A DNA stretch of 64,000 nucleotides from an uncultured bacterium. GTDB lineage: Bacteria > Bipolaricaulota > Bipolaricaulia > UBA7950 > UBA9294. The stretch is from the NCBI GenBank assembly GCA_903857865.1, contig CAIOGO010000015.1, positions 131,035-195,034 of the forward strand, read 5' to 3'. Of the stretch, positions 7,996 through 25,085 are shown piece by piece. A program made the translations under genes and the position numbers. Each line of letters starts with the position of its first letter. The first letter of the stretch is position 1. The notes beneath the pieces are model-generated. The model saw nothing but the letters and a program-made list of their open reading frames with translations, was not told the origin of the DNA and did not search any database.

Positions 7996-8985
7996 ATGCC
8001 TCGCCACAAGCTGATCGTGGCCCTCGCCGTGGGGCTCTTTGTCTTCTCGTCTTTCCTCGGGTGCGCGGCGGGAATGAGCACTCGCTACCTGGACGTCGGC
8101 ATCGAAGTCTTTCACTCTCTCGGCTTTCTTGGGATGGGATGGTACGAGCCGCTCGACGTGCGCTTCCTCTCGATGGACATCGAGAAGCTGTCCGCGGACG
8201 ACGCGGCGAGCGTGACCCGCGCGACCGCTGGGTGTGTTGGGACGGCTTCGATTCCTGCCGAGTGCGTCGCGCTGTCTGGGGTGGACTACGTCTTCGCGCG
8301 CCGATTCACGGCGGAGCCGGTTCTTGGCGCGGCGTATCGTGTCGTGTTGACGAACAAGACCGACGCGCCGCTCGGGGTGGTCCTCGTGATCGACGGGTTG
8401 AACACCAACGGTGGGCTGGCTGCCCTGGGGACGGCCGAGGATCGCAAGTGGGTTCTGTCGCCGCGTCAGACGGTGCGGATCTCGGGGTGGCAGGTGAGTA
8501 CGGACGAAGCGCTCGCGTTCCGCTTCGAGACGCCCAGCCACTCTCAGGCTGCGGATGCAGCGGAACGAGGGACGATCCGCGCCGACGTGTACCTGCCAGA
8601 CGCCGTGTCGGCAGCCTCGTCTCGCGGCACCGGCGCCGGGAGCGTGATCGGCCAGCCGACCGTTCTCGTCCCGTTCGCCTCGGTGACGAGTCTTCCGCTT
8701 GACATCGTCGACGTCAACTACGCGCGGACGTCGGTCTCGCTCGGCATCCTGTGCGGTGAAACCGGGGGAGTCGGCGTTCGCATCACCCAGGTCGTCGTAG
8801 GGACGGTTGCCGAGCTGCGAGGTCTGCGGGCGGGAGACGTGATCACCTACATCAACGCTGTGCCGGTGAACACGTGCGCGGAGCTGGCGGCCTACCTTGC
8901 AACGAGGAAGCCGGGCGACCGCGTCGTGGTCAAGGTGCACCGCGAGGATCGCGACTTCCTCCTGACGCTGGAGATCGAGGAGTAG
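7996..8985 (+). CDS. Exported PDZ-domain protein
   Basis: The protein has 329 residues from the ATG at 7996, which follows a GGAGAAGGGGG ribosome site. The N-terminus is an export signal with a Cys at the end (SSFLGCAAG), possibly a non-standard lipobox. Residues about 30-230 form a beta-rich domain of no recognised family. The last ~90 residues are a PDZ fold: GVGVRITQVVVGTVAELRG, then LRAGDVITYINAVPVNT. PDZ domains bind C-terminal peptides, but no protease domain is attached, so this may be an extracytoplasmic scaffold or adaptor. A -10-like TATACT lies near 7927. It converges on the gene at 9073. Confidence 0.75.
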   Translation: MPRHKLIVALAVGLFVFSSFLGCAAGMSTRYLDVGIEVFHSLGFLGMGWYEPLDVRFLSMDIEKLSADDAASVTRATAGCVGTASIPAECVALSGVDYVFARRFTAEPVLGAAYRVVLTNKTDAPLGVVLVIDGLNTNGGLAALGTAEDRKWVLSPRQTVRISGWQVSTDEALAFRFETPSHSQAADAAERGTIRADVYLPDAVSAASSRGTGAGSVIGQPTVLVPFASVTSLPLDIVDVNYARTSVSLGILCGETGGVGVRITQVVVGTVAELRGLRAGDVITYINAVPVNTCAELAAYLATRKPGDRVVVKVHREDRDFLLTLEIEE

Positions 8986-9072: not shown

Positions 9073-12000
9073 CTAGTCGGACGGCAGGGGCCGCAAGGCG
9101 CTTCCCACGGTGGGGGCGCCACCTTGAACCAGCCGGCACGCAGCGAGGCCGCTCTCGATGAGCTCGACCACCTCGAGTTGTGTTGAGACCGCGTCGGGCG
9201 ACGGCTCTGCGGGAACCTCGAACCGATCGCCCGGACCCACCCCGTTCTCGCGGCCGAGGGAGATCACGATCCTGTCAGACGGCGCGTCCACGACGACGAT
9301 GGTGCCCGGCGGCCCGACGAGAACCGTGTGCACTACCGACCCTGCGGTTCCCGATCGGTCAGTCACGCGAAGCTCGGCCGAGTACTCGCCGGGCTTTTCA
9401 TAGGTGTGCACGGGTGCCAGCTCGTCGGACGTCGTCCCGTCGCCGAAGGCCCACCGCCAAGAGCGCAGGGCGCGATCCCCGGTGGACTGATCGGAGAACG
9501 TCACCGGGCCGCCGGCGTACGCGGATCCTGGACGGTAGCCGAAGTCGGCGGTTGGGGGTCGCCCTGCTTCGGCAAGGAGGACGCGGACCTCGCCCTCTCC
9601 CAACAACTGCGGTTGCTGCAGTGCGTTCCGCTCGAGCTTCGCACGCTCGGGCACGGCGCGCGCGACGTACTCGTAGAGTTCCCACGCTGTGACGCGGCCA
9701 TCCCCGGTGGCGTCGGCGGCGCCGCGCAGACCTTCCAAGAGGTAGTAGCTGAAGATGCCGTGCTTGAGCTCGTCGGATTCGAACGCGTCTTGCGATTCCG
9801 AAGAAGCGGAGAAGACGAGGCGACCCTCGACGGAGAAATCGGAGAACAGATCTTGCTTGTCGGCAACGGGGCGGGCCGAGGACGGGAGGCTGCGGGACAG
9901 TCCCCCGGAGTAGCATCCGTCGAAGAACACGACGACGTGTTGAGACTCGATGCGATCGAGAGCCTCCCCGAACTCGTCGTCGCGCAGAGCGGTGTCCTCT
10001 TTGGCCGCCTCGACCGTGTCCCAGAGGACGAAGAACTCGTCGACGCCGTCGCGCTCGTCGCCGTCGTCGTCGGCTCCCTGGAATCCGTGACCGGAAAAGT
10101 GGATCAGCACAAGATCGTCGGGCCTGGCAACGCGCCGTAGCCACCCGAGAGCTTCGCGCACGTTGACCAAAGTGGCGCGGCGTGCGGCGAGCCCGCCGAG
10201 GTCGTCTTGGGGACCGTCGCGGTCGAGGAGAAGTCGGATGTGGTCTGGTTCGACGCCGGCGTCAAGCAGCCAGCGCGCCATGGCCGACGCGTCCGCCGCG
10301 GCATACTGCAGATCCTTCACCTCGGCGTAGTCGGAGATGCCGATCAGAACAGCCCAGACGTCGCCTACATCCACGATCTGTGGGACAGCGGAAACGTCGA
10401 GGGGCTGCGTCGTGGTGGACGCCAGTCCGGCGTCGTCCACGACGCGCAGCGCAACGTTGTAGCGTCCGACGCGTTCATAGCGATGGATAGGGCTTTGCTC
10501 GTGACTTGTCGCGCCGTCTCCGAAGTCCCATTCCCACAATCGGATCACGCCATCTGTGTCCGTCGAGCGGTCGGTGAAGTAGACGGGATCGCGGACCGCC
10601 GGCGTGGGCGGTGCGTATGCATACGCGGCCCTTGGAGGCTCGCTCTTGTCGACGACGACGACGTGCATCACGGCGTCTGCGCGGCCCGAGTTGTCGATGA
10701 CGCGAAGCGTGACGGGGTGAGATCCTGGGGCGAAAGGGCCGACGGTCGCCGTGGGCTCGGCAGACGTGACGTCGAACGATCCGTCCGCCCCCACATCCCA
10801 CGCGAACTCGACGACGGTACCGTCCGGGTCGGACGCATCGCCGGCATCCAGGCGCACGAGGTCCCCCTCGCGGAGCGGACGAGGCAGCCTCACGCCGCTC
10901 GCGGAGACGGGATAGGCCGAGAACGCGGCGACCGGGGTGGTGTCGGGGGGCCAGATCCGGAGACTGGATGTCAACGCCGAGATGGCGCCGTCGTCATCCG
11001 ACACCGTCAGGACGACGGCGTAGGTTCCTGGATTTGCGTACACGTGGTCCGTCACGCGGCCCTCGGCGGCCGAGCCATCGCCGAAATCCCACCAGATCTC
11101 GCGGATCTCCCCATCGGGGTCCGAGGACTCGTCGGCGAGGAAGCGCAGCGGCTTGCCCGCCTCGGGGTCCGGAGGCGTCGTGCGGAACGCGGGGATCGGC
11201 GGTTCGTTCGGTGCACGTCGGAAGAGGCTGTTGAGAGTCAGTTCGAGGCCGAGGCGGAACCGGGCTCCTCCCGAGTCCAGCGCAAGCCCGGCTCGAACGC
11301 GTGCAGCCGTTCCACCGAACGTGACGGAGAGGTCGCCGTCCATCAGCGCCGCCGCCACAAGCCGCGCGCGAACCTCAACGCGTGCCGCTGCGTCGCCCAC
11401 GGAGACGACGAGCGCCCACGCGTCGGTCTCGGGTTCGAATGCCAGATGGGCCTGCCACTTCTCAGCATCTTTCGTCCATTGGGTCTCGAGTGTTGCCTCC
11501 ACGTCGGGCAAGAGCGCGATCGTCCCCTCGATGGACAGGTTCCCGCCGGCGAGCGCGGCCTGCGTCGACACCTTGGCGAGGAGAGAGCGAAGAGAGAGGT
11601 TGGCCGTACCGGCCGAGACGCTAACAACGAATGGGCCGCTCAGGCCCGCTGTCAGATCGGCCGTCCAATTTCCGCCGGGCCATGCGAAAGAGACGCGACC
11701 GCCGGCGACGAGCCCGGAGCCTCCGATCTGTCCTTCGGCCCACGCGGAGGCCCAGGATCTCGAGCCGTCGAGCGTGCCATCCGCGCCGTAGGCGAGCGAG
11801 GCTCGGTCCTTGCCGGACTCCGCATCCAGCCAACTCAGGCTTCCCTCCGCGTGAGCTGTGGCCTGCATTCCCCAGGTCCCGAGGAGGGATGCTGTCAGAT
11901 CGAGGCGTGCCGAGTCGTCGAGCCAGCGGCAGCCGAAAGCCAGGCTCTGCAGCTCAGCGGGAAAGGCCCCCACGCGCACGCTCGATGTCCACGTCGCGCC

Positions 12001-13389
12001 GAGCCAGCCGTCCGACACCTCCGGGGCCAGCTCAACGGAGAAGGTGGTCAGAGAGGTGGCGTCTGCGCCCGCGCCGATGCTCGTCCATGCAGGTCCGGCG
12101 CCGAGGCACGGGGAATCCGGGAGGAGAGCGAGGTTGTCGCGGGCCAGGTTGGCGAACTGGGGCGACTCGGCGATGTCGGTCGGCGGTCGCAGGGTTCCGA
12201 CGTAGTCCTTCCCGTTGTCCCACACGGCGTTGTAGCCAAGATCGGCGCCCGCGGGCGGGCTCTGGGACGCATCGACGCGCACGCCGGCGCCCTGATTGTA
12301 GGCGAGGATCGTCTGCCGGACACTGGGATGGCCGGAGCGCACGAAGACGCCATCTTCGCCGTTCTCGACGAGCGTCGACAGCAGCAAGCTTGCCGTGCCG
12401 GACGTGTCGAACAGGACGCCGTTCTGGCCTGCGGCGATCACCTCGGCGTGGTCCGCTGTCAGGGTGGCCGCTTCGGAGAGCGCGAGGCCGTCCCCGTTGA
12501 CGTCGACGACTCGCAACTCCGTGGCCCCGAGGCGTGCGCTGCCCGACGCGTCGACGCCCACTCCCCCGTTGCGGACGAGAACCCGCGTGAGGCTGGCGCC
12601 GGTGGTCCCCGCTATCCGCAGGCCGCCGGCGTGGTTGTCGCGAAGTTCGACGTCGACGAGAAGAATCCGGGCCTCACCGAGGGCGAGGACTCCCCACTCC
12701 GACTGGGGGCCGATCGTGGAGTGGTCGACGTCAAGGTCAGCGTCACCCTCGACCGTCACGCCGCAGCGCCCGTTGTCGGCCACCAAAGTCCCGGAGACGC
12801 GCGCGGCGGACGAAGCTCCGAGGACGAGGCCGGAGCCGCTGTTCGCATCAATGACGCAGTCTGTCAGGAGGACTCGCGCGGCGTCGTGGACGAACACCCC
12901 GTGACCGACGTTTCCCGTGACTTGCACGCGTTCGAGCGTCAGCGTTGAGGTCGAGTCGGCAACCTCCACGCCCGAGCCCTGCCCTCCCGTGAGGGTGCAG
13001 TCGATCAGCGCGGCGGCGGCCGAGTCGGCCAGCACCACCGGGCCGGGGAGCACCGATGCGAGGCGTTCCACGGTGACCTTCTCCAGCGATCCACTGCTCA
13101 TCTGGTGCGCGCGCACGACTTCGTCGAAGCCATAGGCGTAGCGGATGATCGTGCTGGACGCGCCGGCTCCAACGACGCGGACTCCGTCCTTCAGGGTGAC
13201 GTGCTCTTCGTAGACGCCGGACGAAACGTAGATCACGTCACCGTAGCTCGACGCATTGATGGCGCCCTGAATCGAGCGGAAGCCGCCTGTGCCATCCTGA
13301 GCGACAACCCACTGAGCCGCCGCGGCGGCGGACGCACAGACCCCGAGGAGGATCCATCCAAGAACACCGCATCGCCAGGCCTTCCGCAT
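9073..13389 (-). CDS. Exported multidomain caspase-like protein with beta-helix and PKD domains
   Basis: The protein has 1,438 residues from the ATG at 13389. It starts with a signal peptide ending near ASAAAAAQ. Residues about 25-430 are a parallel beta-helix of pectate-lyase type (DGTGGFRSIQGAINAS, then repeated short GVxV/LxxC rungs). About 270 residues of alternating beta strands follow. Three PKD domains (about 730-1000) carry WWDFGDGS or WEWDFGDGA cores. A peptidase C14 caspase-like domain (about 1005-1260) starts AVLIGISDY and has the dyad His1101 (IHFSGHG) and Cys1159 (FFDGCYSGG). A fourth PKD (about 1280-1350) and a short C-terminal beta domain end it. It is probably a surface or secreted Arg/Lys- or Asp-type cysteine peptidase. 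Confidence 0.85.
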   Translation of the reverse strand: MRKAWRCGVLGWILLGVCASAAAAAQWVVAQDGTGGFRSIQGAINASSYGDVIYVSSGVYEEHVTLKDGVRVVGAGASSTIIRYAYGFDEVVRAHQMSSGSLEKVTVERLASVLPGPVVLADSAAAALIDCTLTGGQGSGVEVADSTSTLTLERVQVTGNVGHGVFVHDAARVLLTDCVIDANSGSGLVLGASSAARVSGTLVADNGRCGVTVEGDADLDVDHSTIGPQSEWGVLALGEARILLVDVELRDNHAGGLRIAGTTGASLTRVLVRNGGVGVDASGSARLGATELRVVDVNGDGLALSEAATLTADHAEVIAAGQNGVLFDTSGTASLLLSTLVENGEDGVFVRSGHPSVRQTILAYNQGAGVRVDASQSPPAGADLGYNAVWDNGKDYVGTLRPPTDIAESPQFANLARDNLALLPDSPCLGAGPAWTSIGAGADATSLTTFSVELAPEVSDGWLGATWTSSVRVGAFPAELQSLAFGCRWLDDSARLDLTASLLGTWGMQATAHAEGSLSWLDAESGKDRASLAYGADGTLDGSRSWASAWAEGQIGGSGLVAGGRVSFAWPGGNWTADLTAGLSGPFVVSVSAGTANLSLRSLLAKVSTQAALAGGNLSIEGTIALLPDVEATLETQWTKDAEKWQAHLAFEPETDAWALVVSVGDAAARVEVRARLVAAALMDGDLSVTFGGTAARVRAGLALDSGGARFRLGLELTLNSLFRRAPNEPPIPAFRTTPPDPEAGKPLRFLADESSDPDGEIREIWWDFGDGSAAEGRVTDHVYANPGTYAVVLTVSDDDGAISALTSSLRIWPPDTTPVAAFSAYPVSASGVRLPRPLREGDLVRLDAGDASDPDGTVVEFAWDVGADGSFDVTSAEPTATVGPFAPGSHPVTLRVIDNSGRADAVMHVVVVDKSEPPRAAYAYAPPTPAVRDPVYFTDRSTDTDGVIRLWEWDFGDGATSHEQSPIHRYERVGRYNVALRVVDDAGLASTTTQPLDVSAVPQIVDVGDVWAVLIGISDYAEVKDLQYAAADASAMARWLLDAGVEPDHIRLLLDRDGPQDDLGGLAARRATLVNVREALGWLRRVARPDDLVLIHFSGHGFQGADDDGDERDGVDEFFVLWDTVEAAKEDTALRDDEFGEALDRIESQHVVVFFDGCYSGGLSRSLPSSARPVADKQDLFSDFSVEGRLVFSASSESQDAFESDELKHGIFSYYLLEGLRGAADATGDGRVTAWELYEYVARAVPERAKLERNALQQPQLLGEGEVRVLLAEAGRPPTADFGYRPGSAYAGGPVTFSDQSTGDRALRSWRWAFGDGTTSDELAPVHTYEKPGEYSAELRVTDRSGTAGSVVHTVLVGPPGTIVVVDAPSDRIVISLGRENGVGPGDRFEVPAEPSPDAVSTQLEVVELIESGLAACRLVQGGAPTVGSALRPLPSD

Positions 13390-13395
13390 GCGGGG

Positions 13396-13424
13396 ATTGT
13401 AGTGGCGCCTCCGCCGACCACCAA
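13396..13424 (-). promoter_or_regulatory. Promoter of the caspase-like gene; leaderless geometry
   Basis: TTGGTG (13419-13424) and TACAAT (13396-13401) are spaced by 17 bp. The -10 box ends six bases before the ATG at 13389, with no ribosome site between. This supports the ATG at 13389 over the upstream start at 13428. Confidence 0.6.
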
Positions 13425-13475: not shown

Positions 13476-14045
13476 ATGCGAGCCTTCTTCTGTTTGCCGC
13501 TTGACGCGGACGTGCGCGCCGGCATCGCGCGCACGGCGGAGCGGATCCGCCGCGAGGCCAGAATGTCCGCATCGTGGGTCGAGCCGGACAACTACCACAT
13601 CACGCTGCGATTCCTTGGAGACATCGATCCCTCCTCGACGGTCCGGCTCAAGCGCCTTGCGACGGAAGCCGCCGGGGAGTGCGGCGCGTTCTCGATTGCG
13701 CTCCGCGAGGTTGGGGCGTTCCCATCGATCGATCGGGCGCGGGTGCTGTGGGTGGGCGGCCAGGCGCCGGAGGGGTTTCGCGCTCTGGTAGAGTCACTCA
13801 ACAAGAGCCTTGCCGACCTCGGATTCCCGGACGAGCCAAAGCCCGCGGCGGCTCATGCGACGATCGCGCGGCTCAAAGGGGCGCCTGACCGCGGACTCGT
13901 CCGGATTGTCGAGGCGATGGGCGCTCTTGCGCTGCGGGACTCTACGCCGGACCACGTCCTGCTCATGCAGAGCGAACTGACGCCGCGCGGCGCCCGGTAC
14001 ACGCCTCTCTTCTCGGTGCAGATCCCGGGGCAGACGGAGGCCTGA
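13476..14045 (+). CDS. thpR: RNA 2',3'-cyclic phosphodiesterase (LigT/ThpR family)
   Basis: This 189-residue protein has the two HxTx motifs of the 2H phosphoesterase superfamily, HITLRFLG and HATIARLK, about 80 residues apart. Family members open 2',3'-cyclic phosphates at RNA 3' ends to 2'-phosphates, and can join tRNA halves by a 2'-5' bond in vitro. AAGGAGG sits seven bases before the ATG, and TATGAT at 13453-13458 is a likely -10. It is the first gene of a three-gene RNA-repair operon; archease starts four bases after its stop. Confidence 0.92.
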   Translation: MRAFFCLPLDADVRAGIARTAERIRREARMSASWVEPDNYHITLRFLGDIDPSSTVRLKRLATEAAGECGAFSIALREVGAFPSIDRARVLWVGGQAPEGFRALVESLNKSLADLGFPDEPKPAAAHATIARLKGAPDRGLVRIVEAMGALALRDSTPDHVLLMQSELTPRGARYTPLFSVQIPGQTEA

Positions 14046-14048
14046 GGG

Positions 14049-14471
14049 ATGGGATTCACGTATCTTGACCACACGGCCGACATCGCCGTTCGCGCGTGGG
14101 GAGGAACGGTCGGCGAGGCGTTCGCCGAGGCCGCCCGCGCTCTGATCGGCGCGATGGTCAGCCTCGAATGGGTTCGGCCCATGACGTCGCGAGCGTTCGC
14201 GCTTCGGGGAAGCTCGCTCGAGCTCCTGTTGGTGGACTGGCTGGCCGCTTTGGTGGCCGAGAAGGATGTCTCCGGACTTGTCTTTGCGCGCTTCGACGTC
14301 GACATTGTGGAGGACGGCCCCGAGGTGGCGCTGCGGGCCAGCGCTTGGGGTGAGCCTCTCGATCCCGCCCGCCACGAGCCGAGGTTGGAGGTGAAGGGGA
14401 TCAGTCTCCTTGGCCTTCGCGTCCGAGTCGATGGCGAGACGTGGTTCGCTGAGTACGTGGCCGATGTCTGA
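14049..14471 (+). CDS. Archease, RtcB cofactor
   Basis: This 140-residue protein begins MGFTYLDHTADIAVRAWG, the standard archease start with the DHTAD metal-binding motif. LLVDWLAALVAEKD and the C-terminal WFAEYVADV, with the terminal Asp, are also typical. Archease speeds guanylylation of RtcB and lets it turn over many times. It lies three bases after thpR and nine before rtcB, on the same strand, so all three are almost certainly one transcript. Confidence 0.95.
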   Translation: MGFTYLDHTADIAVRAWGGTVGEAFAEAARALIGAMVSLEWVRPMTSRAFALRGSSLELLLVDWLAALVAEKDVSGLVFARFDVDIVEDGPEVALRASAWGEPLDPARHEPRLEVKGISLLGLRVRVDGETWFAEYVADV

Positions 14472-14480
14472 GGTGAGCGC

Positions 14481-15941
14481 ATGGACGAATTCGATCGACT
14501 GGAGCAGGTGGGCGAAGTCGAGTGGGTGCTTGCGCCGTACGATTGCATGATCGTGCCGGGAAGGATCTACGCGGACCGGGAGACGATCGAGCAACTGCGC
14601 CGGGAGGAGGGCGACGGAGCCCAATGGAGCGCGATCCGACAGGTCAAGCACGTCGCATCCATGCCAGGGATTGTATCCGCGGCGCTGGCCTTGCCGGACG
14701 TGCATCCGGGGTACGGCTTCCCGATCGGTGGGGTGGGAGCGTTTGGCATCGACGACGGAGTCGCCGTGGTCGGAGGGGTGGGGTTTGACATCAACTGCGG
14801 CGTGCGCCTGCTGCGCACTCCGTTGCAGCGGAGCGAAGTCGCTTCGGACATCGATCGTATCGGCGAAGACCTCTTCCGTACCGTCCCCGCGGGCCTGGGA
14901 GCAGGCGGCAGTCTGCGCCTCTCGATCCGGGAGATCGACCGTGTCCTCGAGGAGGGGGCGACCTACGTCGTGCGGGAGGGGTTCGGCGTGGCCGACGACC
15001 TCCAGTTCACCGAAGAAGGCGGGCGCATGAGCGGCGCGGACCCCGACGCAGTGAGTTCGCTCGCCAAGCAGCGGGAGTTCCAGCAGGTCGGGACGCTGGG
15101 CTCGGGCAACCACTACCTCGAGCTGCAGTACGTGGAACACGTGCTCGATGCGGCGGCGGCCGCCGCCTACGGGCTGAGCGAAGGCCAGGTCGTCGTCGCC
15201 GTCCACACGGGGTCGCGCGCCCTGGGCCACCAGATTGGCCAGGACTACCTGAAGGAGCTCGGTGCTGCGTGCACGAGATACGCGATAGCGATTCCGGATC
15301 AGGAGATGGTGTGCGCGCCGATCAAGAGCCCGGAAGGCCGGCGGTACCTTGCTGCCATCGCCGGCGGCGCGAATGGCGCCTTTGCCAACCGACAGATGAT
15401 TACCCACCTTGTGCGGGTCTCGCTCGCCCGCACCTGCGGCCTGGATCCTAGCGCGGTCAGCACGGTCTACGACATCGGACACAACAACGCGAAGGTCGAG
15501 GAGCACGAGATCGATGGGGAGGTGCGCCAGGTCCTCGTCCACCGGAAGGGGGCCACTCGCGCGTTTGGCCCGGGCCGGCCGGAGACACCGGCGGCGTATC
15601 GCAGCGTGGGGCATCCGATCTTCGTCGGGGGGACGATGGGCACGGCCTCGTACGTGATGCGCGGAACCGAACTAGGGATGAAGAAGACGTTTGGGAGCGG
15701 CATCCACGGCGCGGGTCGTGCGTTGTCGCGGAAGAAGGCGGCGAAGAAGTTCTGGGGAGAAGACGTGGTCTCGGCGTTGCGGAAGGCGGGGATTCGCATC
15801 TTCGCGCACGATCCGCGCGGCGTCGCCGAGGAAGCGCCGGGCGCATACAAGGACGTTGAGCGCGTCGTGGGCGCAGCGCAGGCTGCGGGACTGAACCACG
15901 CTGTCGTTCGCCTGCGACCGATGGCCGTGATCAAGGGCTAG
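14481..15941 (+). CDS. rtcB: RNA-splicing ligase RtcB
   Basis: This is a 486-residue RtcB. Metal ligands are in VGFDINCGVRLL (Cys106) and GSGNHYLELQ. The histidine that is guanylylated is His409 in GSGIHGAGRALSRKKA. RtcB joins 2',3'-cyclic phosphate or 3'-phosphate ends to 5'-OH ends using GTP and Mn2+. Together with archease and a cyclic phosphodiesterase it forms an RNA break-repair unit, for instance for tRNAs cut by toxin endonucleases. No intron-containing tRNA or rtcR regulator is seen here. Its end lies five bases from the convergent yvcK stop. Confidence 0.96.
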   Translation: MDEFDRLEQVGEVEWVLAPYDCMIVPGRIYADRETIEQLRREEGDGAQWSAIRQVKHVASMPGIVSAALALPDVHPGYGFPIGGVGAFGIDDGVAVVGGVGFDINCGVRLLRTPLQRSEVASDIDRIGEDLFRTVPAGLGAGGSLRLSIREIDRVLEEGATYVVREGFGVADDLQFTEEGGRMSGADPDAVSSLAKQREFQQVGTLGSGNHYLELQYVEHVLDAAAAAAYGLSEGQVVVAVHTGSRALGHQIGQDYLKELGAACTRYAIAIPDQEMVCAPIKSPEGRRYLAAIAGGANGAFANRQMITHLVRVSLARTCGLDPSAVSTVYDIGHNNAKVEEHEIDGEVRQVLVHRKGATRAFGPGRPETPAAYRSVGHPIFVGGTMGTASYVMRGTELGMKKTFGSGIHGAGRALSRKKAAKKFWGEDVVSALRKAGIRIFAHDPRGVAEEAPGAYKDVERVVGAAQAAGLNHAVVRLRPMAVIKG

Positions 15942-15946
15942 CGTTC

Positions 15947-17269
15947 CTAGTCGTCGCCCGGCTCTTCGACTCCGAAGCGGCGGACGAACGTCCGCGTGTG
16001 GCGAACCAGGGCTCGCGTCAGCTTGTCCGGATCGTGCTTGACGGTCGTCTTCCCCGCTAGATCGGCGATCCCGATCAGATCCTCTCGAACGACGGTCAGG
16101 CCGTAGTCGTTGGGCGTCGGTAGGTCGTCCGCGACGGGCTCCGCGGCCTCGCTGCGATACCCGGCGAGAAGAGGCTCTGCGGGCTCTGCGCAGTTGACAA
16201 AGAGCAGGTCGAATCCGCCCACGTGGATGTAGTCGTTGAGGGCGCGCAGATGATCAGAGAGTGTGAACCCCTGCGTCTCGCCCGGTTGCGTCATCAGGTT
16301 GGCGACAAGTGCTTTCTCCGCACTCGCCTTCTCGATCGCCTCGGCGATGGAGTCGACGAGCAGGTTGGGAACAAGGCTTGTGAATAGGCTGCCGGGTCCG
16401 AGAACGATCAGATCCGCCTCGGCGATCGCCTCGAGGACACGCTCGTACGCCGGGACGGGCGAGGTGGAGAGCGACACTCGCGCAATCCGCCGTCCGGCCT
16501 GCACGATGCGAGTCTCGCCCTCGACCACTTCGCCGTCCGCGAACCGGGCGACGAGGTGCGTCTTGGTCAATGTAGCCGGCAACACGCGGCCACGAACGTT
16601 GAGGAAGTGACTCATGGCCTCGATCGCTCGATCGAACCCGCCGGTCGCTTGCTCGAGCCCAACGAGGACAAGGTTGCCGAGGGAATGGCCGGCCAACTCC
16701 GGCGGCGACTGGAAGCGATGCTGGAAGTAGTCGGAGAGCCGAGACTCGTCCTCGGCCAGGGCGAGTAGGCAATTGCGCACGTCGCCGGGCGGCAGGACAT
16801 CGAACTCGTCGCGCAGCCGTCCCGAGCTCCCTCCGTCGTCGGTTACCGTCACGATGGCAGTGATGTTCGCGGTGACCTGCTTGAGACCGCGCAGCAGAGT
16901 GGACAGCCCCGTTCCGCCGCCGATCGCCACGACGCGAGGCGCGCGTTCGAGCACGCGCGTGCGATAGACGGCGGCCGCCATCTTCTCGTGCGAGGCCGGG
17001 GCGACGCCGCGGGCGACGGAACGCACGAGGCGCAGGATGGCGTAGAGAAAGGCGGCGACGCTGGTGAGAAGAGCGCCTGTCGCCAATCCATAGCGGGTCG
17101 TCTGCGTCAGAGGGAAGGAACGGTAGAGAAACCTCATCAGGTCGATGCCGAAGGCGTATAGGACGGCGAGCGTGAGGACACCCATCGAGAGGAAGGCGAG
17201 CGCCAGCCACCGTTTGACGCGCATTCCCGGGTACAACCAGCGAAGCGTGCCGCGCGGTCGCCACGTCAT
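15947..17269 (-). CDS. yvcK: YvcK/CofD-like gluconeogenesis and cell-morphology factor
   Basis: The protein has 440 residues from the ATG at 17269. That ATG overlaps the dnaE stop as ATGA, which fixes the start within a longer open frame. Two or three N-terminal membrane helices (about residues 15-85) precede a CofD-like Rossmann domain with IGGGTGLSTLLRGLK, VTVTDDGGSSGRLRDEF and VLGPGSLFTSLVPNLLV. In Bacillus, YvcK binds UDP-sugars and is needed for peptidoglycan assembly on gluconeogenic carbon. The membrane-anchored version is less usual than the soluble Bacillus form. Last gene of the eno operon. Confidence 0.93.
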   Translation of the reverse strand: MTWRPRGTLRWLYPGMRVKRWLALAFLSMGVLTLAVLYAFGIDLMRFLYRSFPLTQTTRYGLATGALLTSVAAFLYAILRLVRSVARGVAPASHEKMAAAVYRTRVLERAPRVVAIGGGTGLSTLLRGLKQVTANITAIVTVTDDGGSSGRLRDEFDVLPPGDVRNCLLALAEDESRLSDYFQHRFQSPPELAGHSLGNLVLVGLEQATGGFDRAIEAMSHFLNVRGRVLPATLTKTHLVARFADGEVVEGETRIVQAGRRIARVSLSTSPVPAYERVLEAIAEADLIVLGPGSLFTSLVPNLLVDSIAEAIEKASAEKALVANLMTQPGETQGFTLSDHLRALNDYIHVGGFDLLFVNCAEPAEPLLAGYRSEAAEPVADDLPTPNDYGLTVVREDLIGIADLAGKTTVKHDPDKLTRALVRHTRTFVRRFGVEEPGDD

Positions 17270-20200
17270 CGGTCGTCCCTGTCCGTGAGCGCGACCTCCA
17301 TCACTCCCGCGAGGGCGCCGAGGGAGGCTCGGAGACCGGGATTCGGGGCCACGGTGAACCCGGCGCCTGCCGACACGATGACGGCGCCGGCGCCGGCCGG
17401 GTCGGAGAGGCACAGGCGGACCGGAGTCGGTCCCGGGTGGCGCTGAAGAAGGGCGACGAGTTGTTCGAGTGCGAGGGAGTCGAGGGTATCGCTGTTGAGA
17501 ACAAGCGTCATGCAGACCGAACTGCGGCGTGCCGCCTCCTCGAGGGGGAACACCTCCTCCAGGACCACGTTCGCCTCTCCGTTCCTTCTCCCTACCTGAA
17601 CGCGCGCTGCGATCAAGCTGTCCTCGCAGAGGAGCGCCGCCGCGGACTCGAGAGTCCGCGGGAAGACGGTGGCTTCGATCTGGCTCGCGCCGTCCTCGAG
17701 GACGAGGAAGGCCATCTGGCCGCCCCGGCGCGTATCGATGCGTCGCAACGACTTTACACGCCCTCCGACGAGGGCGAACTCTCCCTCGGCCAACTCCGCC
17801 AGCCGGCGGAGAGGAACGCAGTAGGTGGCGAGGGTTTCTGCATGCTCGTCGAGCGGGTGCGCCGTGATGTATAGGCCGAGCAACTCCTTCTCGAATGCGA
17901 GAAGGTCGGGCCGGGCGAACTCGTCTTCGCGCACGGCGGGGTCGGGGTCCGCGTCGGAGAGGTCGGCGAACATCGAACGCTGACCGGTCAGGCGCTCGCG
18001 CCGCGACAGTTGCATGAGTTCCATGCCCTCGGGCAGATGACGCAAGAGACCACGGCGAGAGGCTCCGAATCGATCGAAGGCTCCGACCTTGACGAGAGCC
18101 TCAAGCGCCTCGCGGTCTAGCCCTTCGTGCTCGACGCGTCGGCACATGTCGAAGAACGAAGCGAACGATCCGGAGGTACGCGCGGACAGGACCGCCTGGA
18201 TGGCGTTGGCCCCAACGTACTTGATCGCCCCGAGCCCGAAGCGGACGACGCCCTCGCGCACGGGAGCGAAGGCGCTGGAACTCTCGTTGATATCGGGAGG
18301 GAGCACCGCGATGCCTAGTTCACGGCACTCGCCGATGTACTCTGCAACCTTGTCGGTGTCTTCCTGGACGCTCGTGAGCAGGCTGGCCATGAAGTGGGTT
18401 GGGAAGTGCGTCTTGAGGTACGCGGTCCAGTACGAGACGAAGGCGTAGGCCGTTGAGTGGGACTGGTTGAAGCCGTAGCGCGAGAACTTCTCCATGTCGT
18501 CGAACGTCGTCACGGCGAGGTCCTTGGTGAGTCCGTTGGCCACGCAGCCTTGAGTGAATTTCTCCCGCAGGCTTGCCATGATGTCCTTGTTCTTCTTCCC
18601 CATCGCCTTTCGCATCGTGTCGGCTTCCGCGAGCGTAAAGCCGGCGAGCTTCTGTGTCATCAGCATGAGCTGGTCTTGGTAGATGGGGAGGCCGAATGTG
18701 CCCTCGAGAACCTCGCGGATGCTCGGATGGGCGTACGCAACGGTGCGGCGGCCGTGGCGACGCTCGACGTACTCGTCCGTCATGCCGCTCTCGAGGGGGC
18801 CGGGTCGGTAGAGCGCGAGGAGGGCGATGAGATCCTCGAAGCGATTGGGCTGGACGCGGCGGATCAGCCCCGTCATTCCCGAGCCCTCGAGCTGGAAGAT
18901 CCCGCCCGTCTTGCCCGCCCGCAACAGGGCGAACGTCGCGTCGTCATCCAGGGGAATGGACTCCGTCTTCAGGTCCACGTGGGCATGCGTCGACAACAAC
19001 GCCAGGGTGTCCTCGATCAGCGTCAGGTTGCGCAACCCGAGGAAATCGATCTTGAGAAGGCCGATGGCTTCCACGTCCGTCATGTCGAACTGCGTGACGA
19101 ACTCCCCCTCGCCGACGCGGAGGAGGGGAACATGCTCGGCCAGGGCGTCGGGCGCGATGACGACGCCGGCGGCGTGGGTGGAGATGTTGCGCGTGAGGTC
19201 CTCGAGGCGCAGGCCGATGTCGACGATCCGCCGCACGTCGGGGTTCTCCTCGACCAGCGTCCGTAGTTCGGCCACGCTGTCGACGGCCGCCTTGAGTTTC
19301 GACCCGAACGGGATGAGCTTGGCGATCCGATCGGTCTCGCCGTAAGGGAGACCGAGCACGCGTCCGACGTCGCGCACGACACTGCGGGCGGCCATTCGAT
19401 CGTACGTCGCGATCTGCGCGATGCGCTCCCACCATCGCTCGCCGCCGTACTTCGAGCGGACGTAGTCGATGACGCGTTCGCGTCCGCGGATGCAGAAGTC
19501 GATGTCGAAGTCCGGCATGCTGACGCGGTCCGGGTTGAGGAAGCGCTCGAAGATGAGGTGGTAGCGGAGCGGGTCGACGGCCGTGATCTCGAGCGCGTAC
19601 GAGACGAGGCTGCCCGCCGCCGACCCTCGCCCCGGCCCCACGGCAATCCCGCTCTCGTGCGCATAGCGCACGAAGTCCCACACGATGAGGAAGTAGGTGC
19701 TGTAGACCATCTTGGCGATGACGGCGAGCTCGTAGTCGAGACGCTCCTTGACCTCTGGAGTGATCTCCCCATAGCGCTTGGCCGCGCCCGCGGTGGCTAG
19801 CTCCCGCAGGTACTCGTCCGAGCTGGTAATGCCCGGCGGAAGCGGGAACGGAGGGATGAGGATTCGATCGAAATCCAACGCCACCTGACAACGCTCGGCA
19901 ATAGCACGCGTGTTGTCAATCGCGTCCGGGGTGTCCGCGAACAGAGCCTCCATCTCCTCACCGGTCCGGAAGTGGTAGCCGTCGCCGTCGAAGGAGCGGT
20001 GTTCGGGGTCCGCTAGGGTGCGATTGGCGCGGATGTTGATCAGCACTTCGTGGGCCAGCTTGTCGTCCGGATCGAGGTAGTGGACGTCGCTCGTGGCGAC
20101 GAGCGGAAGGCTCAGTTTGCGGGCCAGCGCAACCAGCCGACGGCGCAGTTGCGCGTCGCGTTCTGTGCCGTGGTGTTGGATCTCGATGAAGAACCGGTCA

Positions 20201-20706
20201 GGGCCGAACATCCTGGAGAACTGGCCGGCGACGCGCTCGGCCTCCGCGTCCCGTCCGGCCTGCAACAGGCGCGGGATCTCGCCGGATTCGCAGGCGGAAA
20301 GGGCGATCAACCCCTCGGAGCAGCGCGCCAGGAGCTCCTTGTCCGCGCGCGGACGATAATAGAAGCCCTCCGTGTGGGCCGCGCTCACAACCTGGAGGAG
20401 GTTTCGGTATCCAGCTTCGTTCTCGGCGAGGAGGACAAGGTGGTAGTACCGGTTTCCTTCGCTTGCAGAACGATCGCGTCGGTCCCCCGGAGCGACGTAG
20501 ATCTCGCAGCCGAGGATGGGATGGACGCCGCGGCTCTGCGCCTCGCGGTAGAACTTAACGATGCCGCTCATCACCCCGTGGTCGGTCAGTGCGAGGGAAG
20601 TCATCCCGCAGCGCGCCGCGCGATCCAGGAGGTCGGGAAGGCGACACGACGAGTCGAGGATGCTGTACTCCGAATGGACGTGGAGGTGAACGAAACGCGC
20701 GGTCAC
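17266..20706 (-). CDS. dnaE: DNA polymerase III alpha subunit, DnaE1 type
   Basis: The protein has 1,146 residues from a GTG at 20706, close to the family norm of 1,160. The start follows GGAGGAG and overlaps the previous stop as GTGA. The N-terminal PHP domain keeps its metal motif (LHVHSEYSILDSS and ALTDHGVMSG), so it may be an active proofreading site. The polymerase active site MPDFDIDFC lies near residue 400, as in E. coli, where Asp401 and Asp403 are catalytic. GPGRGSAAGSLVSYAL and a C-terminal OB-fold region follow. It is the replicative polymerase; coupling with eno and yvcK is a local arrangement. Confidence 0.97.
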   Translation of the reverse strand: MTARFVHLHVHSEYSILDSSCRLPDLLDRAARCGMTSLALTDHGVMSGIVKFYREAQSRGVHPILGCEIYVAPGDRRDRSASEGNRYYHLVLLAENEAGYRNLLQVVSAAHTEGFYYRPRADKELLARCSEGLIALSACESGEIPRLLQAGRDAEAERVAGQFSRMFGPDRFFIEIQHHGTERDAQLRRRLVALARKLSLPLVATSDVHYLDPDDKLAHEVLINIRANRTLADPEHRSFDGDGYHFRTGEEMEALFADTPDAIDNTRAIAERCQVALDFDRILIPPFPLPPGITSSDEYLRELATAGAAKRYGEITPEVKERLDYELAVIAKMVYSTYFLIVWDFVRYAHESGIAVGPGRGSAAGSLVSYALEITAVDPLRYHLIFERFLNPDRVSMPDFDIDFCIRGRERVIDYVRSKYGGERWWERIAQIATYDRMAARSVVRDVGRVLGLPYGETDRIAKLIPFGSKLKAAVDSVAELRTLVEENPDVRRIVDIGLRLEDLTRNISTHAAGVVIAPDALAEHVPLLRVGEGEFVTQFDMTDVEAIGLLKIDFLGLRNLTLIEDTLALLSTHAHVDLKTESIPLDDDATFALLRAGKTGGIFQLEGSGMTGLIRRVQPNRFEDLIALLALYRPGPLESGMTDEYVERRHGRRTVAYAHPSIREVLEGTFGLPIYQDQLMLMTQKLAGFTLAEADTMRKAMGKKNKDIMASLREKFTQGCVANGLTKDLAVTTFDDMEKFSRYGFNQSHSTAYAFVSYWTAYLKTHFPTHFMASLLTSVQEDTDKVAEYIGECRELGIAVLPPDINESSSAFAPVREGVVRFGLGAIKYVGANAIQAVLSARTSGSFASFFDMCRRVEHEGLDREALEALVKVGAFDRFGASRRGLLRHLPEGMELMQLSRRERLTGQRSMFADLSDADPDPAVREDEFARPDLLAFEKELLGLYITAHPLDEHAETLATYCVPLRRLAELAEGEFALVGGRVKSLRRIDTRRGGQMAFLVLEDGASQIEATVFPRTLESAAALLCEDSLIAARVQVGRRNGEANVVLEEVFPLEEAARRSSVCMTLVLNSDTLDSLALEQLVALLQRHPGPTPVRLCLSDPAGAGAVIVSAGAGFTVAPNPGLRASLGALAGVMEVALTDRDDR

Positions 20707-21035
20707 GGCGAGTTCTCCTCCACGAAGAAAACCTTCTCCTCTCCCGATCTTATGAGCCCGAGGCGTCTCCGAGCTTCGTCCTCCAGTGTCTTGGGATCGG
20801 ATGTCGATGCAACGTCGACGCGCAGCTCCTTCTGACGTGCCGCAGCTTGCCCCTGCTGGGCCTGGAGGCTGGCGAGCTCGCGGCGTAGGCCGCCGATGGC
20901 CAGCTGTCGGCTCAGGAAGACCGCGGCGATCGTCAGCAACACGAGGACGATCGATCCCCCCACGACCAGTCGGCGGCGACGATCCGTTGCGATACGCTGG
21001 AGCAGGCTCTTCGCCTTCACCCATCCCCTCATCTT
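20703..21035 (-). CDS. FtsB/DivIC-like septum protein
   Basis: This 110-residue protein starts at ATG 21035, seven bases after GGAGG. It has a basic N-terminus, one membrane helix (about residues 23-42), then a coiled coil (LRRELASLQAQQGQAAARQKEL), ending with KTLEDEARRRLGLIRSGEEKVFFV. The last segment, ExARxxLGLxxxGE, is the septum-formation initiator signature. FtsB bridges FtsL and FtsQ at the division site. Its place right after eno matches the common eno-ftsB linkage in other bacteria. dnaE overlaps its stop. Confidence 0.85.
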   Translation of the reverse strand, partial: KMRGWVKAKSLLQRIATDRRRRLVVGGSIVLVLLTIAAVFLSRQLAIGGLRRELASLQAQQGQAAARQKELRVDVASTSDPKTLEDEARRRLGLIRSGEEKVFFVEENSP

Positions 21036-21067
21036 GGCCTCCGCCGGCCATTCCCCGAAACCGGCGT

Positions 21068-25085
<4,018 letters not shown>

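Follow-up and report, generated by a model that had tools for sequence, protein, structure and literature searches.

A 64,000-nucleotide stretch of contig CAIOGO010000015.1 (positions 131,035 to 195,034, assembly GCA_903857865.1), here called the window, encodes a caspase relative that carries an export signal and presents a metacaspase-like peptidase C14 domain on a large scaffold made of a beta-helix, an orphan beta region and PKD domains. The open reading frame (ORF) of 1,438 residues is on the minus strand, from the ATG at 13389 to the stop at 9073, and belongs to a 2.24 Mb metagenome-assembled genome of the Bipolaricaulota in 22 contigs. Membership in peptidase family C14 is secure from the tested features, and the protein is probably an endopeptidase of the metacaspase type that is attached to the envelope and cleaves after Arg or Lys. 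The PKD domains would be spacers, the beta-helix would bind a ligand, metal and/or self-cleavage would bring activation, and an exported PDZ protein would be the partner. The domain layout appears to be new and, in the genomes searched, seems limited to one family of the Bipolaricaulota.

Domain layout and conservation

The chain, all features of which are on the minus strand, begins with a type I-like signal peptide (residues 1-25, MRKAWRCGVLGWILLGVCASAAAAA; 13315..13389), a hydrophobic N-terminus without lipobox that is common to every orthologue with a readable start; export was judged by inspection, from hydropathy and start context and not by a dedicated predictor. Next comes a right-handed parallel beta-helix (residues ~26-430; 12100..13314), recognised by Pfam Beta_helix (PF13229, 77.9 bits, E 8.5e-22, above the curated cut-off), by the AlphaFold2 (AF2) model and by Foldseek, and then the orphan amphipathic beta region (residues 431-727; 11209..12099). 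PKD1-PKD3 (residues 728-1003; 10381..11208) precede the C14 domain (residues 1004-1262; 9604..10380), which is followed by PKD4 (residues 1275-1364; 9298..9567) and a C-terminal domain (residues 1365-1438; 9076..9297). The PKD domains are the four stretches of one PF18911 match (E 5e-64, 212.9 bits, above cut-off), and the third superimposes on the PKD domain of ColG with a root mean square deviation of 0.9, Z 15.5 and 38% identity in VIA-align. The C-terminal domain is only weakly FlgT_C-like (PF16538, E 0.27) and has a conserved GD/LEVxEL core. A first-pass annotation, made by a model from the sequence letters, had described this chain as signal peptide, beta-helix, strand-rich region, three PKD domains, C14, a fourth PKD and a C-terminal domain, and this description agrees with the hydrophobic N-terminus, with the two Pfam families PF18911 and PF00656 and with the extent of the strand-rich region, ~431-727. 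Its "pectate-lyase-type" beta-helix holds for the fold, but the match concerns the fold only and implies no lyase activity.

The layout is not a product of chance, because nine further orthologues (L004, L006, L007, L009-L014) keep the domain order at 38-59% identity, where its absence in close relatives had been named as the observation that would speak against it. Eight of them are full-length and one, in genome G017, ends after the C14 domain and so has no PKD4; two more orthologues, L005 and L008, are partial at contig ends. Mean pairwise identity is highest in C14 (68%), followed by PKD1-3 (53-59%), the beta-helix (41%), PKD4 (38%) and residues 431-727 (28%), and a best-conserved C14 domain fits the expectation if selection acts on catalysis. 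When contigs were scanned with the whole alignment, its patterns came to lie in PKD repeats, and 79 of the 80 loci were PKD proteins without matching C14, a result that says nothing on absence outside the phylum; the sole orthologue among them, L053, comes from Candidatus Bipolaricaulota and shares its contig with G015, a genome of the same family as that of the window. Scans of viral sequences with the alignments of C14 and of the beta-helix gave no match, and plasmid tblastn found only caspase-family proteins, at ~31%.

The metacaspase-like C14 domain

Peptidase_C14 (PF00656) matches residues 1012-1261 with 60 bits, against a cut-off of 21.4. Among solved proteins the domain matches by sequence metacaspases (Yca1, E 2.5e-13) and the uncharacterised bacterial structure GSU0716. 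For the structural comparison VIA-align was used, as Foldseek with the whole C-terminal model was swamped by Ig and PKD chains, and the C14 model aligned with AtMCA4 at Z 15.6 over 207 residues, with Yca1 at 13.6 and with TbMCA2 at 12.5. The range of Z for metacaspases is 12-16, and legumain and GPI8, which belong to the same clan, reach ~14. VIA-align also pairs ~80 residues beyond the linker with the p10 part of metacaspases, at low pLDDT (the AF2 confidence score).

The two motifs that carry the catalytic dyad, IHFSGHG (residues 1096-1102) and FFDGCYSGG (residues 1155-1163), are both present, and His1101 (10087..10089) and Cys1159 (9913..9915) are unchanged in all orthologues that reach these positions and align with H220 and C276 of Yca1, so that the intact dyad of the first-pass annotation stands. 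It had further been held that a model with the His and the Cys apart would refute the assignment. In the AF2 model, built from two sequences (the window protein and L053), each of them sits at the end of the strand where it is expected, but pLDDT in the active-site loops is only ~29-55, and the juxtaposition of the two residues is therefore taken from homology.

In TbMCA2 the S1 pocket is formed by Cys92, Asp95, Ser156 and Asp211 (PMC4357240), and via the Yca1 alignment the latter three correspond to D1033, S1099 and D1157. With the same alignment the aspartates of the Ca2+ site, as taken from PMC9622860, were mapped, and here too three of the four are kept, with Asp173, Asp189 and Asp190 at D1117, D1137 and D1138. 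As the domain is metacaspase-like in its match to Yca1, in the VIA-align scores and in three of four residues at both sites, a P1 preference for Arg or Lys can be predicted fairly strongly, whereas an effect of calcium on the activity is a weaker prediction. The p20-p10 linker contains Arg1173, which is identical in 11/11 sequences that reach the linker and would be the likeliest site of self-cleavage.

Proposed envelope attachment, exported relatives and gene surroundings

The beta-helix is modelled with a pLDDT of 70-96 over about residues 55-305, with the first two thirds modelled well, and its Foldseek matches are AlgE4, GH87 and tailspikes; this likeness suggests that it may bind glycans or surfaces. 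In none of the 12 members does the region of residues 431-727 match a Pfam family better than by chance, and a hidden Markov model of this region finds one copy each in 12/100 Bipolaricaulota genomes, all of one family and always within the caspase ORF. The first-pass annotation had proposed to examine residues 430-730 for an outer-membrane barrel. In favour of a barrel, no other part of the chain shows as strong a period-2 strand alternation as 431-727 (the mean z relative to shuffles is 4.6, while the other parts have -0.4 to 1.6 and the C-terminus of the Omp85 protein of the same genome has 1.8), but there is no Pfam outer-membrane barrel match in the chain, nor in 431-727 of the 12 members, and AF2 gives no confident fold (pLDDT <50). 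Such alternation would suit a barrel as well as a large amphipathic sheet. An outer membrane in the host is plausible, since the genome encodes Omp85 and since the phylum's first closed genome, interpreted as that of a peptide and amino-acid fermenter, has been reported with a possible simple diderm envelope (PMC6092417). If residues 431-727 were an outer-membrane barrel, the protein would be self-anchored in the manner of autotransporters, with the beta-helix as an arm at one end and the PKD-mounted metacaspase as an arm at the other, and the protease would be displayed on the surface and perhaps released by a cut near the junction to PKD1, where a basic residue is present in 11/12 sequences (here residues 724-725). 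This self-anchored form is rather unlikely.

Export of a caspase homologue had been regarded as an exception among mostly cytosolic ones, and for this phylum that contrast holds poorly. Of 39 distinct C14 proteins collected from Bipolaricaulota, 34 have a start that can be read, the other five beginning outside the contig or at no recognisable start. By a simple hydropathy rule 32 of the 34 have a hydrophobic export signal, as signal peptide or lipobox, while two (L023, L024) look cytosolic. By this rule, secreted caspase relatives would be the rule in Bipolaricaulota. The second C14 protein of the same genome (locus L001, G000:C14:46202-46825) has a lipobox, one PKD and an intact dyad, and belongs to a group of ~400 residues with the order lipobox, PKD, C14 and with relatives in several genera. 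In another exported group (L048, L031, L037, L042, L049, L028) the peptidase domain directly follows the signal peptide. On the C14 proteins of Bipolaricaulota, literature searches turned up no publication. A 2012 survey of 671 prokaryotic metacaspases had already listed 30 that have extracellular-type domains and 98 of a membrane class, most of which probably have a signal peptide (PMC3501461).

The convergent neighbour of the caspase gene encodes a PDZ protein (7996..8985, plus strand; PF13180), exported by inspection; the PDZ domain is C-terminal, and the part that precedes it is unclassified. It is not considered a lipoprotein, as the lipobox-like FLGC of the window is absent from most orthologues. 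The order in the orthologues, as far as contigs extend, is gltX - PDZ - caspase gene - thpR - archease - rtcB - cofD - dnaE. Of the 33 genomes of the family 14 have the PDZ gene, and in all 14 the caspase gene or its C-terminal end adjoins or, in G023, is found at a separate contig end; in one further caspase genome, G003, the contig end cuts the locus. The conserved block thpR-archease-rtcB, then cofD and dnaE (13476-21159), persists throughout the family whether or not the caspase gene is present, and a functional link of the caspase gene to thpR-archease-rtcB was rejected, the neighbourhood being incidental because genomes without the PDZ-caspase pair keep the block. In G011 the pair is together, the thpR-rtcB block is on another contig, and the 4.5 kb upstream of thpR contain no caspase gene. 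A tree built from rtcB, cofD and dnaE places the carriers in one clade of 11 sampled genomes (support 0.60), with G011 in addition.

The caspase gene has a leaderless-type promoter with the -10 element TACAAT at 13396..13401 (minus strand), 6 bases 5' of the ATG, and a -35-like TTGGTG at 13419-13424 upstream of it (minus strand). The gap of exactly 6 bases is conserved in 10/10 sequences (the window and nine orthologues), which fixes the start codon at 13389, and a TTG-rich -35-like element lies ~17 bases upstream of TACAAT in most of them. Among the ORFs of at least 100 codons in the window, this gene is the only one with TA[CT]AAT 3-39 bases 5' of its ATG. The conserved spacing suggests that the transcript may be leaderless.

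Proposed action, alternatives and comparison with known systems

It can be envisaged that the chain is secreted by Sec, that its N-terminal beta-helix binds a ligand, probably a glycan, and that residues 431-727 keep the protein at or in the envelope, while the PKD string would serve as a spacer that presents the C14 domain. This domain would cut after Arg (or Lys) by means of the dyad His1101/Cys1159, with D1033, S1099 and D1157 in the S1 pocket. The single chain may be held in check until it is activated by metal at D1117, D1137 and D1138 and/or by self-cleavage, for which the invariant Arg1173 of the p20-p10 linker is the best candidate, and the convergent exported PDZ protein would act as partner by binding the protease itself, its cleavage products or the tails of its substrate. 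In a peptide-fermenting lineage the use may be the processing or scavenging of extracellular protein; a surface protease that acts on glycoproteins or on neighbours, as had been proposed at the outset, is possible.

Several observations weigh against this metacaspase-type envelope protease. The active-site loops are poorly defined in the model, which derives from a two-sequence alignment; the S1 residue Cys92 is replaced by A1030 and the fourth Ca2+ aspartate, Asp220, by Ser/Arg; characterised orthocaspases are calcium-independent (PMC5756287); and the co-occurrence with the PDZ gene comes from few independent events, one clade and G011, which makes this gene link only suggestive. The strongest rival is a clan CD peptidase of maturation or sorting, which would trim the cell's own PKD-rich surface proteins or attach them by transpeptidation, like PorU or GPI8 and legumain-type ligases. 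The many PKD proteins in genomes of the same family would suit it as substrates, and the structural matches do include GPI transamidase (8imy_K, Z 14.0) and asparaginyl ligases (Z 13-14), but this similarity is common to the whole clan, the match to metacaspases is equally good or better, no other named peptidases were found by sequence, and the S1 residues are metacaspase-like, so that this role is improbable.

Less probable again, with a small chance only, is a conflict protein, that is an exported protease that harms neighbouring cells or serves phage defence. Conflict systems often contain C14 domains (PMC7159879) and the PADLOC "caspase" model matches at 65 bits, but the EACC1-associated caspase of NCBIfam (NF047832) is excluded by its score of 85.1 bits where 140 are required, the locus is a stable one among housekeeping genes (gltX, thpR-archease-rtcB, cofD, dnaE), no immunity-like gene or variable tip was seen, and the distribution is mostly vertical. 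Because of this score and of the gene context, membership in a defence system was rejected. Marginally less likely still is a non-catalytic binding or scaffold protein that uses C14 for recognition only: pseudo-orthocaspases are common in bacteria, 16% being without the dyad according to the survey (PMC3501461), but here neither the dyad nor the S1 aspartates vary, and no domain of the chain is better conserved than C14.

Discussion of caspase relatives mostly concerns proteases that work inside the cell, in cell death or immunity. In the Bipolaricaulota the C14 family has become a set of exported enzymes, here on a giant conserved scaffold, and this gives a direct way to ask what a metacaspase may do outside the cell. 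The prediction is a clear one (Arg/Lys cleavage, a Ca2+ effect, a cut at Arg1173), and the locus further offers a candidate for the partner gene and a beta region that belongs to no class.

Type I metacaspases act inside cells. Those of known structure (Yca1, 4F6O; T. brucei MCA2, 4AF8; C. glabrata MCA-I, 7QP0) have in common with the window protein the C14 fold, the dyad, the two S1 aspartates and the Ser, as well as the GDExDGxDE motif and the DDE metal residues, but they lack the beta-helix and PKD scaffold, whereas the window protein lacks the fourth Ca2+ aspartate and the S1 Cys. Prokaryotic orthocaspases such as MaOC1 and the exported metacaspases of the 2012 survey are likewise bacterial C14 proteins with the dyad, several of those surveyed having extracellular-type domains or a probable signal peptide, and the window protein adds to this the beta-helix, the orphan beta region and four PKDs, an order absent from the accessible text of that survey (PMC3501461). 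Closer to home, the lipoprotein-PKD-C14 proteins such as L001 are also exported and have a PKD beside a C14 with intact dyad, but they have ~400 residues, a lipobox anchor and one PKD, and neither beta-helix nor the 431-727 region. The collagenases ColG and ColH are likewise secreted proteases with PKD domains. Their catalytic domain, however, is a zinc metalloprotease. The Ig-like arm of inverse autotransporters would resemble the PKD arm if residues 431-727 were a barrel. Clostripain and gingipain R, finally, are likewise secreted His/Cys peptidases of clan CD, with their Arg preference and calcium (PMC4357240), but they belong to families C11 and C25 and have another domain layout, so that they are alike in role and not in membership.

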